From Thunnus maccoyii (taxonomy: Eukaryota > Chordata > Actinopteri > Scombriformes > Scombridae): a stretch of 64,000 bases of DNA. This document shows positions 4,428 to 50,485 of this stretch, piece after piece. Each line of letters begins with the position of its first letter. Within the stretch, counting starts at the first letter, position 1. The position numbers and the translations under genes were made by a program. The DNA lies in contig NC_056545.1 in assembly GCF_910596095.1 (NCBI RefSeq), forward strand, positions 27,985,067-28,049,066. The letters are read 5' to 3'. Below the pieces are notes generated by a model. The model saw only the letters and a list, made by a program, of their open reading frames with translations, was not told where the DNA came from and ran no database searches.

Positions 4428-7132
4428 CTAGAAGTTAGTGCAACGCAAGAAGTAGCTGTTTCCCAGCACACGGAACAACCTGCCGCTCCTCATGCTGTAC
4501 TCAAACATATGGGGTCCACTGTAGAGATAGGTGAAACCTGGAGAACAGAGAATCAGTGTTAGTCTCTGTGTTTGATAAAGACTGGAAAGATTCATAATAA
4601 CTGTAAACATTCTCTCATTTCAATAGTCCTGATTTGGAAAACTCAGTTCAGCCTTGAACGCTACTCACTTCTGTACTGGAAAGCTGCTGTCACCTTGCCG
4701 GTCATGCCAGAGAAGGTCTCATCAACACGTTTAGGGAATCCCTCGTCCATTGTCTGTTTGGTCTCATCATAACTACAGACACACAGACAAGAGTTAGACC
4801 GATTCACTATTTGTACACCATCATGTAAACTATCGTCACATCTAAACCAGTCACCTGAACTGATTTCAGATCACGTCATTTGAACACACCTGTAGTAATA
4901 TCTGTCCACAAAGAACAGAGTCTTGCGAGAATCCACGTCATACATAACAGCATCGATTTTCTTCACACTTTTGGGCAGACCAAAACTGGAAATTGTTTTA
5001 GGATAGCCACGTACAAGGTCATAGCCACTGAAAGCCCACACTTTACGATCTGTAAGGAAATTCAATACAGATACTTTTTAGTGAATGCACGTAAGGGTTA
5101 GTAACGTACACTTGAAAATAGTGTCAGATTATGAGCTTTAGGTAGATTAAGAGAACACATACCTTTAAAGAGTAGGACATTGTCTGATTGTTTGCTCTCA
5201 TAAGCAGCGTCGATGTTGACAGGGGCATTAGGCCAGAAGTTTGTGATGAGACTTTGCTGAGGTGTATTGCTCTGAGGGTAGCTACGCCAGAAGAAGCTGA
5301 GAACACACAAGAACACAAATGAGTTCATAAACCTGCTCTTGTGTGAAGAGAAAACACTCAGAATGGACTTCAGTATTCAGATATTTGAGTATTCTATGTC
5401 TGCGATACCTGTCTTTGAAGAAGAGCATCTCTCCTCGCAGGGTGGCCACAGCGTCCAATACCATGGTGGAATCACAGGCATCAGGGGTGGTGGGAGGCTG
5501 AGGTTCAGGCTGAACTGGATCCTTATCAGGGTTTGGACCTGGAGGTTGAATAAAGTCAGAGTAATGTTATGTTCAGGAGTTCCTCAGAGATTTAGGCTGA
5601 GTGCTATTTGTGCAAACAGGCAGCTATGAATCAGTCAGTTAGTACTAACCATAGAGAGACTGGATGCCGTTGACATCATCCCGGGGGAGAACAAAGGTGT
5701 CAGGGTTTCTGTATATGTACAGAGGGTACATGAGAGCACCAGGATCTGTAGAGTGAGACAAGCCCAGGGAGTGGCCAAACTCATGGGCAGCTACCATGAA
5801 CAGGACGTATCCTACAGCAGAAAAGACAGAATTACAAGTCATATACAGATCCTCTCAATGAGGAGCATACAATATATCATGTATATGAAAATATACACTG
5901 AGTAGTTAAGAAGTAAAATCAGACACTATGCTGGGCATAAATAACTCACCAGACTTTGAGCGGAAGGTGAAGGTCTCATCATCGTCAAAATGAGCATCTC
6001 CTCCAATGCCAGGGGCTGGGGCGAAGGCATGGGCAAGAGTGCCATCAGGGCCATCAAAGGGGTAAAAATCACCATGTGCTGTTAAAAGAAGCATATTTAT
6101 GTCAGGTTTGGCAAACTGGATAGAATTACAGGCCATTACATGAATTACTGTTAAAAAATACAAATCAGAACTTCAAGACACAGAAAAAGCATGTAGTTAA
6201 AGCCAAGAATCTTAAGAACATCACAACTAATAAACTGAGCATAGAGAAAGTGTATAACTGGGACATACACAGGAAATGTTGTTTAGTACTCACATTGGCG
6301 GCCAAAGGAGATCATGATGTCAGCTGTGCCACTGTAGATTCTTGTGAATCTCAGAGGAGTGACTTTGGCCCAAACCTGCAGTGCTTTCTCCATGGAGTCA
6401 TCTACCTCTGCCACAGACATGTCAGGTGTGTAGTTCTCAATCCTGTAAGACAGAAAAATATAGAATATACTTCAATAATTTATCACATGCAATGCCTAAA
6501 GTTAGTCTCTCACACATTCTCTCTTTAGATCATTCACCTGTACGTAAGACTGTTTTTCTGCCACTTGAGGTTATTTCCAAAGGTAGAGAAACGAGCAGGG
6601 TCCACATCTGGAACGCCACAGCGGGGCTTCTTCATCATCGCCATGGTGTCAGCATCCAGCGTCCCGGTGATCTGGAGACCAAAGAATCGCTGCATCTCAG
6701 TCAGCTTCTTGACCGCTGGGCTGATCCCCCGTCTGATAGTTGGACCGCTCTCCTCAGTTAGGTTGAAGAATTTCTTCAGGTAGCTCTGTGAGAGAAAATC
6801 AAAGTTACATACTTAAATATGCATCATCTGCAGAATATACTAATATACTCCATGCAGGAAGAAGAGATCTGTTAATATTTTAACAGCAGGGATCAAGCAG
6901 GTACTGTAGTGAAATTCTTCATGTGTCTATAACAACGTAACATCAGAATTCAGAGAACAAAGTTTTCAAATGCACAACTTTAGTACAACATAGTGAGAAT
7001 ACATGCATAAAAAGGCAAAGCAAGAACACCTACCTCTGCAAATTGCTCATCTTGAACAGTAACCTGTGATATTGGCACGCAGTGAACTGCGACTGCCAGG
7101 CTTAGTAGAATGCTGAGATTGATTGTCTTCAT
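4428..7132 (-). CDS. mmp13: Collagenase, MMP13-like, copy 1 (complete, 10 exons)
   Basis: Secreted zinc endopeptidase that cleaves fibrillar collagen and other matrix proteins. Coding exons (minus strand): 7034-7132, 6538-6785, 6294-6442, 5950-6078, 5650-5811, 5409-5538, 5163-5296, 4890-5049, 4669-4772, 4428-4537. They total 1425 nt, giving 474 residues (human MMP13 has 471), with canonical splice sites and an unbroken frame. Exon 1 gives a signal peptide starting [20 protein letters not shown]. Exon 2 carries the cysteine switch PRCGVPDV. Exon 5 has the zinc site [11 protein letters not shown] and Met-turn ALMYP. Exons 6-10 form a hinge and hemopexin domain closed by Cys in PDACDS and LRCTNF. 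At the exon 6/7 and 9/10 joins the split codons give Ser where MMPs usually have Arg and Gly. Possible poly(A) signals on the minus strand lie at 4072-4077 and 4047-4052. MMP1/8/18-type collagenase is the alternative name. Confidence 0.93.
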
Positions 7133-7178
7133 GTTTCCTCGTTGTAGGCAACTTGTGTTTCTGTGCTGGAGGCAGCTG

Positions 7179-49300: not shown

Positions 49301-50485
49301 TGATTTTAATTATGATACCTTAAGATAATGCTGTTTTTGTAGACTTCTAGTCTAGTCAGACTGATAGTGGAGCCAAGTGGAGCTCATAAAGGGCTATTCT
49401 CAATGCATCAGATTTTACTTCAGTTTAGGTTTCCCGGGGGGTAGAAATTGTGGAAATTCATTAGTTAGTTTATGAAGTTATAATGTCAAGACTTTTATCA
49501 TTATTAGAAATCAAATTTGTATATTATAAACCAACTATTATAAACCTGTAATTATAAAATAAAATGAAAAACCAGATTAATTAGGGTGTACACAGCATAT
49601 GGGCTAAGACAAGTGCAATGGTGAGAGATATATTTATCAAGATACATTTCAATAAATAAGCAATATGCTGTTCTTCATATATTTGCTGATTTGCACCTGA
49701 TTTTGACTCCACACTGATGAAAAAGAGGTGCTATTGTATGTGTTTTGACCTGCTCTCACAAAACACTGTGGTTACTTAAACTGAAAAGTTATTAACATTA
49801 ACTATTTCATGGCAGTTTCTTAGATTGTTGCTGTCATCTTATTGAATATAATGAATGATTTTTTTTGTAATGTAGTGGGAGAAAAAATGATTGTCGTTAG
49901 GAAAAAATGCCAAAATAAAAGAAAATCAGTACAGTACATGTCACAAAAGAAAAAAAAATAGTTCACTTGGGATTACCTCTCACAATATTCTTATTGTTAT
50001 ACTTGCATAAACAGTTCTACAAAAAAAATTATGTTGCCATGAATTTGTAAGTGTAGTGTATTGACAAACTGGAAAATGATATCAGGAGCCATCACCTGTA
50101 TTTTACTAGTACTAACAGAATACAGATCCTATCAGTGGGTCTAAATTTAGGTAATTTAAAAAGCTTTTAGGGAAATGCAGCACTTATCAGAACTACCATA
50201 ATTGAGTGTTCAGGTCGACATAGTGGGGCTATAAATCTGTTCAGAGTAAATCTCTCATAAATAAAACAACATGTCCCATTCAGAAACCAGTAAAGCAAGC
50301 TCTCTTTTATACTTTCTCACAAGTTGCATGTATAAACTGATAAATACCTCTGCAAACTCCCAGTCAGCTTCAGATGGTCCAGCATGGGGTTGTGTAGGCA
50401 GGACTGGGTTCCAGAGAGGCAAGCTCATAACAAGAGTCTTGCTGGGCATCATAACAGTCAGAAGACTCAGCCAGAGCATCTTCAT
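40377..50485 (-). CDS. Secreted matrix metalloproteinase, complete 10-exon gene (MMP20/MMP30-like?)
   Basis: Exons (minus strand): 50348-50485, 47864-48120, 47406-47554, 46285-46410, 45196-45357, 44752-44881, 44473-44609, 44167-44326, 41066-41166, 40377-40513. Together they give 1497 nt and 498 residues in one frame, with the intron phases of the collagenase genes. Exon 1 begins [13 protein letters not shown] (signal peptide). Exon 2 has an RRKR run early in the propeptide and the cysteine switch PRCGLSDV. Exon 4 has HFDADEDW (calcium/zinc region). Exon 5 has the zinc site [11 protein letters not shown] and Met-turn AIMYP. Exons 6-10 form the hemopexin domain between [10 protein letters not shown] and LLECKK, with a short tail ending MVGR. 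The family is certain but the member is not: the sequence is not clearly MMP13, and MMP20-like or fish MMP30-like are possible. Intron 8 (3.0 kb) holds a hAT-type element; exons 9-10 were copied twice into the array downstream. Confidence 0.9.
41817..43790. mobile_element. Diverged hAT-type element in MMP intron 8
   Basis: Related along its length to the elements at 9485 and 28619, but clearly more diverged and with indels. Shared landmarks are GAGGAGGTTGCTCCTC near the left end and CACCACTCAGGGGTTTTTGT near the right. The intron 8 sequence shared with the orphan exon copies stops exactly at its left edge. It contains a telomere-like run at 42130-42152. Confidence 0.6.
42130..42152 (+). repeat. 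Short interstitial telomere-like repeat
   Basis: Three GGGTTA units followed by GGG, inside the hAT-type element of intron 8. The related elements at 9.5 and 28.6 kb have only GGGCGGG at this place, so it is a local expansion. Confidence 0.8.
46509..47385. mobile_element. Inverted-repeat DNA transposon filling MMP intron 3
   Basis: The left end GGGGCCTGTACTATAAAGCA and the right end read inward, AGGCCTGTACTACGAAGCAG, form inverted repeats. The element is about 880 bp and takes up nearly all of intron 3 (46411-47405). No transposase is seen, so it is non-autonomous. The family is unresolved (PIF/Harbinger-like ends are possible). Confidence 0.65.
48545..48628. repeat. CT then AT dinucleotide microsatellite
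   Basis: (CT)n from about 48545 to 48593 with one GT interruption, running straight into (AT)n to about 48628, in intron 1 of the MMP. Confidence 0.95.
48673..48948. mobile_element. MITE with inverted ends in MMP intron 1
   Basis: The left part contains CCCCCTATTTAGCATTTATA and the right part, read inward, GTCCACCTATTTAGCATTTA. About 275 bp, with no coding capacity. It is a small inverted-repeat element of a type common in fish. Confidence 0.6.

Follow-up and report, generated by a model that had tools for sequence, protein, structure and literature searches.

How could a collagenase gene multiply together with the tail of the protease gene beside it and leave that neighbour whole? The question is raised by a stretch of Thunnus maccoyii DNA (NCBI RefSeq assembly GCF_910596095.1, contig NC_056545.1, positions 27,985,067 to 28,049,066; 64,000 nucleotides in all, hereafter the window), in which copies of a gene resembling mmp13 stand beside partial copies of another matrix metalloproteinase (MMP) gene, termed P. 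The names mmp13-like and P were given by similarity and do not imply orthology. We assign a probability of about 0.85 to the reading that the locus is a tandem array, which would have begun with a founding duplication breaking in intron 8 of P and would later have been reshaped by unequal exchange and gene conversion.

The inventory within the window was derived from self-comparison and from exon models with AG/GT splice sites. The window was also joined with six stretches on its left and three on its right, giving 154 kb. Coordinates are window positions; left of the window, x denotes the genome position minus 27,985,066 on the same contig (C13). Assembly searches covered the window's own assembly (782 Mb, 54 contigs), and only the best candidates were scored. 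The data are those of a single assembly.

The junction in intron 8 of P

A module-like organization was observed at the locus: the repeated unit holds a whole gene and the truncated end of its neighbour, and the full neighbour, P, lies at the edge. The genes and tails of the window are given below.

4428..7132, minus strand: gene A, mmp13-like, 10 coding exons, intact open reading frame (ORF) of 474 amino acids, from exon model and splice sites
15037..15903, minus strand: B, truncated mmp13-like copy, exons 7-10 only
23562..26266, minus strand: gene C, mmp13-like, 10 coding exons, intact ORF of 474 amino acids
35355..38051, minus strand: gene D, mmp13-like, 10 coding exons, intact ORF of 472 amino acids
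40377..50485, minus strand: P, the parent MMP, 10 coding exons, ORF of 498 amino acids
11219..12512, minus strand: tail1, orphan 3' end of P, with exon 10 (11264-11400), exon 9 (11954-12054) and part of intron 8
30961..32249, minus strand: tail2, orphan 3' end of P, with exon 10 (31006-31142) and exon 9 (31696-31796); mosaic
40340..41818, minus strand: tail3, P's own tail (CA tract, exon 10, exon 9 and proximal intron 8), the portion present in the units
12513..13864: L0, mmp13 3' flank fused to tail1 at the putative founding junction; 95.3% identity with the flank that follows tail2
16867..17318: degenerate tail/flank boundary, P intron 8 (41429-41532) followed by L0 pieces

An earlier sequence-only reading had counted three intact collagenases, one truncated collagenase, two orphan exon pairs and one full parent MMP, all on the minus strand, and this count is exact within the window. 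The tandem array that it described is real, but larger than claimed, as it extends leftward of the window, where we found 4 further full 10-exon mmp13-like ORFs and 1 further truncated copy:

x -39536..-36040: G1, full 10-exon ORF, 85-87% protein identity to the other copies
x -26053..-23354: G2, full 10-exon mmp13-like ORF
x -17950..-15252: G3, full 10-exon mmp13-like ORF
x -10839..-8140: G4, full 10-exon mmp13-like ORF
x -3710..-3134: B0, truncated copy, ending in an AT repeat

In total, 7 intact mmp13-like genes and 2 truncated copies make up the array; the intact genes cover ~78 kb, or 90 kb when P is included. When gene D was compared with the assembly, 12 of the 16 matches among those scored fell within the array, and the 4 elsewhere were short and weak.

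The evidence for a founding duplication comes from the boundaries between P tails and mmp13 flanks. Seven such boundaries were found, and five of them share one breakpoint at P 41818, followed by CACAGTCC, which bears out the earlier claim that the unit breaks inside the neighbouring MMP and places its right break in intron 8. After P 41818 the sequence continues as CACAGTCCAGTTC..., which belongs to the 3' flank of the mmp13-like gene that comes next. The units of G2, G3, G4, A and C all have this same breakpoint; in the nearest 30-40 bases, only G2 shows one difference at the left (shared with P) and G4 one at the right. Past the breakpoint, the flank in the other four units is 95.3-97.7% identical to the flank that follows tail2. 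Spacing from junction to junction is 7.9, 7.1, 18.8 and 19.7 kb, and the last junction lies 9.6 kb from P 41818. A single founding tandem duplication, with its right break in P intron 8, is the simplest account.

The remaining two boundaries are degenerate. The one at x -2257..-1806 is a copy of that at 16867-17318, and both join P 41532 to flank pieces, the junction itself having been lost. For G1 no P tail was found, only a 122-bp piece of the upstream region that is 71% alike.

The tails differ in what they retain. Tail1 begins at a CA tract and stops at the junction, and in tail1 and tail2 alike 98 of the 101 bases of exon 9 and 136 of the 137 of exon 10 are the same as in P. Splice sites and frame are preserved in these orphan exons, and the exon pair carries two amino-acid changes. 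In the units of G2, G3 and G4, intron parts of P are kept at 76-94% identity, exon 10 is missing (homology skips from 39510 to 40623), and a TA/TG repeat stands in place of exon 9. The earlier reading gave exons 9 and 10 to each full unit; this holds for two of the five junction-bearing units, those with tail1 and tail2, while the other three keep P intron sequence without either exon. A segment at P 41429-41646 was considered as an insertion in P and rejected, since G3 and G4 carry it; it was lost in tail1, tail2 and G2.

Later growth and mosaic tails

A second, younger layer overlies these units. We observed a later REARRANGEMENTS in the form of a 14.3-kb block pair, x -3057..11219 and 16023..30353, which is 99.42% identical with the left flank included. 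Within the window, the A/C repeat measures 11.2 kb at 99.79%, far above chance, and the A and C proteins differ by 2 amino acids with zero silent sites. The block contains A or C and starts where truncated B breaks; homology of B to D ends at 16023, within exon 6. Judged by sequence, A and C were duplicated as a block in a separate, more recent event. We also tried a plain 19.1-kb tandem duplication ending on the right at 11219, which predicted another P tail near x -7868. No exon 9 or 10 match was present there, indicating that the recent event was a 14.3-kb block among older units.

Units A and C share one further feature, which the D-P stretch lacks:

28628..30842: a further, diverged copy of P intron 8 sequence (P 41833-43783) between two CA tracts, about 74-90% identical by piece; the same copy lies at about 9494-11218 in unit A, and over both units the pieces match at about 67-90%

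This extra copy has the mmp13 upstream region on one side and the tail on the other, which puts the parts of P in permuted order. CA tracts are present at the joins of the permuted pieces, which suggests slippage or short-homology exchange.

Next, the history of the tails was examined by a mosaic count. At sites where G3 equals G4, we scored whether a tail sides with P or with G3/G4, using BLAST-aligned blocks only. For tail2, the P-like:G-like sites numbered 11:0 (P 40623-40728), 9:1 (40955-41060), 9:6 (41176-41384) and 6:7 (41684-41818). Summed, tail2 gave 20:1 for the two blocks to the left of exon 9 or at its edge against 15:13 for the two on its right side (Fisher p = 0.0014), and 20:1 versus 9:12 with G2, G3 and G4 together as reference (p = 0.0005). 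The corresponding counts for tail1 were 20:1 versus 19:9 (Fisher p = 0.03). Earlier tail2 counts of 41:1 versus 16:18 (p = 2.5e-7) or 16:30 (p = 1.2e-10) were withdrawn, as they had included unaligned stretches of P and the G units.

In a 106-bp block of intron 9, P, tail1 and tail2 had zero branch length and G2-G4 stood 0.13 away from them; near the junction, the tails were nearer to G2-G4 than to P, whose branch was 0.087. The mmp13-like genes have a mosaic make-up as well: an identical-run test found 944 identical columns between C and D upstream of the gene, a run reached in 0 of 2000 shuffles. The count was likewise 0 of 2000 for tail1-B against tail2-D, 8 of 2000 for tail3 against tail2, and 59 of 2000 for A against C. 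Exon 8 is identical among G2, G3, D and B, different in A and C, and intermediate in G4. Gene conversion probably rewrote parts of tail1 and tail2, as the sequence comparisons suggest. We infer that it ran from P to the orphan tails, because the other tails decayed; the reverse direction is also possible.

Several features of the surroundings were noted. A Tc1/Tc3-type transposase fragment occurs in both copies of the recent block (845-1219 and 19979-20353), with a match of the first to Pfam HTH_Tnp_Tc3_2 below the cut-off. In the insert after truncated B, an ORF at 16427-16729 presumably represents a fragment of a BED-type hAT transposon, and frames at 52405-52868 resemble what we take to be a LINE reverse transcriptase tail; neither had a Pfam match. 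At the left end of the array, another MMP lies on the minus strand at C13:27938582-27940749 (x -46485..-44318). Its piecewise identity to P and G1 is 28-57%, and its best PDB matches are gelatinase A and stromelysin-1. On the right flank (64-94 kb), where only MMP exons and proteins were sought, no MMP exon or protein match was found. A six-frame Pfam scan of 50.5-64 kb (E 0.001) and an Rfam scan at gathering thresholds returned no match. A synteny look-up in this assembly, made with orthology to teleost mmp13a or mmp13b in view, placed DCUN1D-type matches on contigs other than this one and the closest BIR match 9 Mb off on C13.

Proposed origin and alternatives

These observations can be arranged in a candidate sequence of events. 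The segment copied by the founding duplication would have started in the 3' flank of an mmp13-like gene, taken in that gene with the region upstream of it, and ended within intron 8 of P, the neighbouring MMP. New units would thereby each have acquired one whole collagenase-type gene and the last two exons of P, with P left whole at the array edge. Later unequal exchange, a mechanism suggested by the arrangement, would have added units and the 14.3-kb block. Gene conversion would have acted between gene copies, and between the tail of P and the two nearest orphan tails, and orphan tails farther from P have lost their exons. The orphan tails themselves may be by-products that give homology for further exchange with P. 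A stronger form of this idea, which we regard as tentative and rather unlikely, is that the orphan tails near P act as exchange handles, such that unequal crossover with the tail of P alters collagenase number and leaves P unbroken. Conversion with P would then keep orphan exons 9-10 working, and the decayed distal tails could no longer exchange safely. If so, most variation in copy number would be seen at the P end.

Some points weigh against the proposed origin. The Fisher tests assume that neighbouring sites are independent, which fails, and the tail1 value is weak. Exon 10 lies outside the mosaic test, since G2-G4 have no exon 10. Left of D coordinate 34500, no L0 was found in the left flank of G2, so the founding unit has not kept its left edge. 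One simple tandem duplication does not account for the permuted intron-8 copy in A and C. In addition, the ancestral order, the direction of conversion and any restriction to one lineage are presumptive, being read from a single assembly, and the 99.4-99.8% identity of A and C could partly reflect false (haplotype) duplication of that assembly.

Carried further, this last point would mean that part of the array, chiefly the A/B versus the C/D half, is a product of haplotype duplication in the assembly. Across 11-14 kb the identity of the A and C blocks is 99.42-99.79%, which falls within the range of allelic divergence in fish. However, there are no N bases in the joined 154 kb, and the adjoining stretches differ: B is truncated and D whole, ~0.6 kb at 30354-30960 is missing from the A unit, and identity there is only 97.8% in aligned bases. 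Moreover, G2, G3 and G4 are several percent from A, C and D, so that even if the two halves were haplotypes, the array would still contain G1-G4, one of A and C, and D. We therefore consider such an assembly error improbable.

Another explanation is that the orphan exons are used: read-through from D would splice its exon 8 to exons 9-10 of tail2 and produce a collagenase with the fourth hemopexin blade of P. Tail2 does lie downstream of D on the same strand, has intact splice sites and carries AATAAA 175 bp beyond its stop; the predicted fusion of D exons 1-8 with tail2 exons 9-10 is in frame (1443 nt, single terminal stop). Ahead of tail2, however, D possesses exons 9-10 and AATAAA signals of its own, and the orphan exons are gone from three of the five orphan tails, so no general constraint retains them. 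On balance, we judge such a product very unlikely.

That the tails are independent insertions of a mobile segment and not the edge of a tandem unit is scarcely credible: tail ends are alike in different contexts, with a left CA tract that has three different flanks, and A and C offer a possible empty site where a CA tract meets intron 8 near P 41818-41833, but the right end is then the same mmp13 flank in all five tails that retain it, and of the 11 scored genome matches to the P tail, 10 lie in the array and the single one outside it, elsewhere on C13, spans 43 bases. A mobile element or circular intermediate had also been considered for the tail and intron-8 pieces together; it was dropped for the tails because the array-wide common junction makes it needless, and the permuted A/C copy remains unexplained.

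Gene products and related systems

The encoded proteins were then compared with known MMPs. The best PDB sequences for D were MMP1, a 450-residue chain that includes the prodomain, at 458.7 bits and MMP13, a 368-residue chain that lacks it, at 447.5 bits, and those for P were likewise MMP1 and MMP13, at scores lower than for D. By sequence similarity, D is closest to MMP13 and the interstitial collagenases. The zinc motif HExxHxxGxxH is present in all seven mmp13-like ORFs and in P. Pfam PF00413 was matched in D and P, and hemopexin PF00045 in 3 stretches of D and 4 of P, in a scan of these two proteins. PRCGxPD is the cysteine-switch motif; it reads PRCGVPD in five of the seven copies (G1, G4, A, C and D), ARCGVPD in G2 and G3, and PRCGLSD in P. 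The change from Pro to Ala lies in exon 2 of G3 (x -15840..-15599) and of G2 (x -23942..-23701).

All seven intact mmp13-like genes have TATATAA at -53 from the ATG and an AP-1 consensus TGA(G/C)TCA 95-119 bases upstream. In the 260 bases examined, P lacks such an AP-1 motif, and its sole TATA-like match is at -206. These promoter calls are motif matches and no proof of activity. The most likely effect of the array would be more copies of a secreted collagenase-type MMP, some near-identical and others with altered hemopexin blades. A higher collagenase dosage, as the sequence-only reading had proposed, is plausible, as all seven copies have open reading frames and TATA and AP-1 motifs.

The ratio of non-synonymous to synonymous change (dN/dS), which here rests on small counts and non-independent pairs, was 0.31 for A versus D in the prodomain and catalytic part and 1.12 in the hemopexin part. 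Among pairs of G2, G3, G4, A, C and D, it ranged over 0.10-0.59 and 0.41-1.59, respectively (A/C undefined), and for G1 versus the rest over 0.38-0.44 and 0.43-0.60. Relaxed or diversifying change in the hemopexin part is possible. Between copies, replacements are relatively commoner there than in the prodomain-plus-catalytic portion, which might affect how substrate is bound.

The break inside a neighbouring protease gene had been called unusual, which is only partly right: the human RCCX module (PMC8362596) and Drosophila Sdic (PMC3449122) also break inside neighbouring genes. RCCX consists of STK19-C4-CYP21-TNX, and where a segment is added it brings with it TNXA, a truncated TNXB copy. Exchange and chimeras between TNXA and TNXB are described there, as are unequal crossover and gene conversion, and commonly 1-3 segments (PMC8362596). 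RCCX resembles the present array in having a tandem unit of whole genes plus a truncated neighbour copy, with the intact parent at the edge, and in exchange between truncated copy and parent, which the tail2 and tail1 mosaics suggest here. Unlike in RCCX, parent and amplified gene are both MMPs on one strand, seven protease copies are intact, and the orphan exons are intact in two of the five tails. The locus works like RCCX, with a protease in the role of the amplified gene, and RCCX is the closest known arrangement.

Similarly, Sdic of Drosophila melanogaster arose by incomplete duplication across neighbouring genes followed by tandem amplification, and the type III antifreeze protein array of an Antarctic eelpout is a fish tandem array, with ~8-kb repeats of a single gene each (PMC3449122). 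Sdic became a chimeric gene; in the present array the amplified gene has stayed whole, and no function is demonstrated for the orphan exons. The eelpout array gained a new function from a partial gene, whereas complete MMP genes were multiplied here.

Among MMPs, a pair of mmp13 genes is reported for those non-salmonid teleosts that were studied and four copies for Atlantic salmon and rainbow trout, with mmp1 and mmp8 lost from teleosts (PMC12649390), and the human 11q22 MMP cluster is attributed to tandem duplication (PMC1867822). Like the present array, both are collagenase-type MMPs expanding by duplication. The teleost paralogs number two, or four in salmonids, against seven intact mmp13-like copies in one array here. 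No tandem mmp13 array in fish was found in the titles and abstract starts returned by searches of the open-licence literature.

Seven intact copies in one array would represent a large rise in collagenase gene number and would allow a test of dosage versus specialisation. The common breakpoint, the decay of the distal tails and the mosaic state of the proximal ones also form a natural record of how a module whose break lies inside a neighbouring gene can grow while that neighbour is kept whole.

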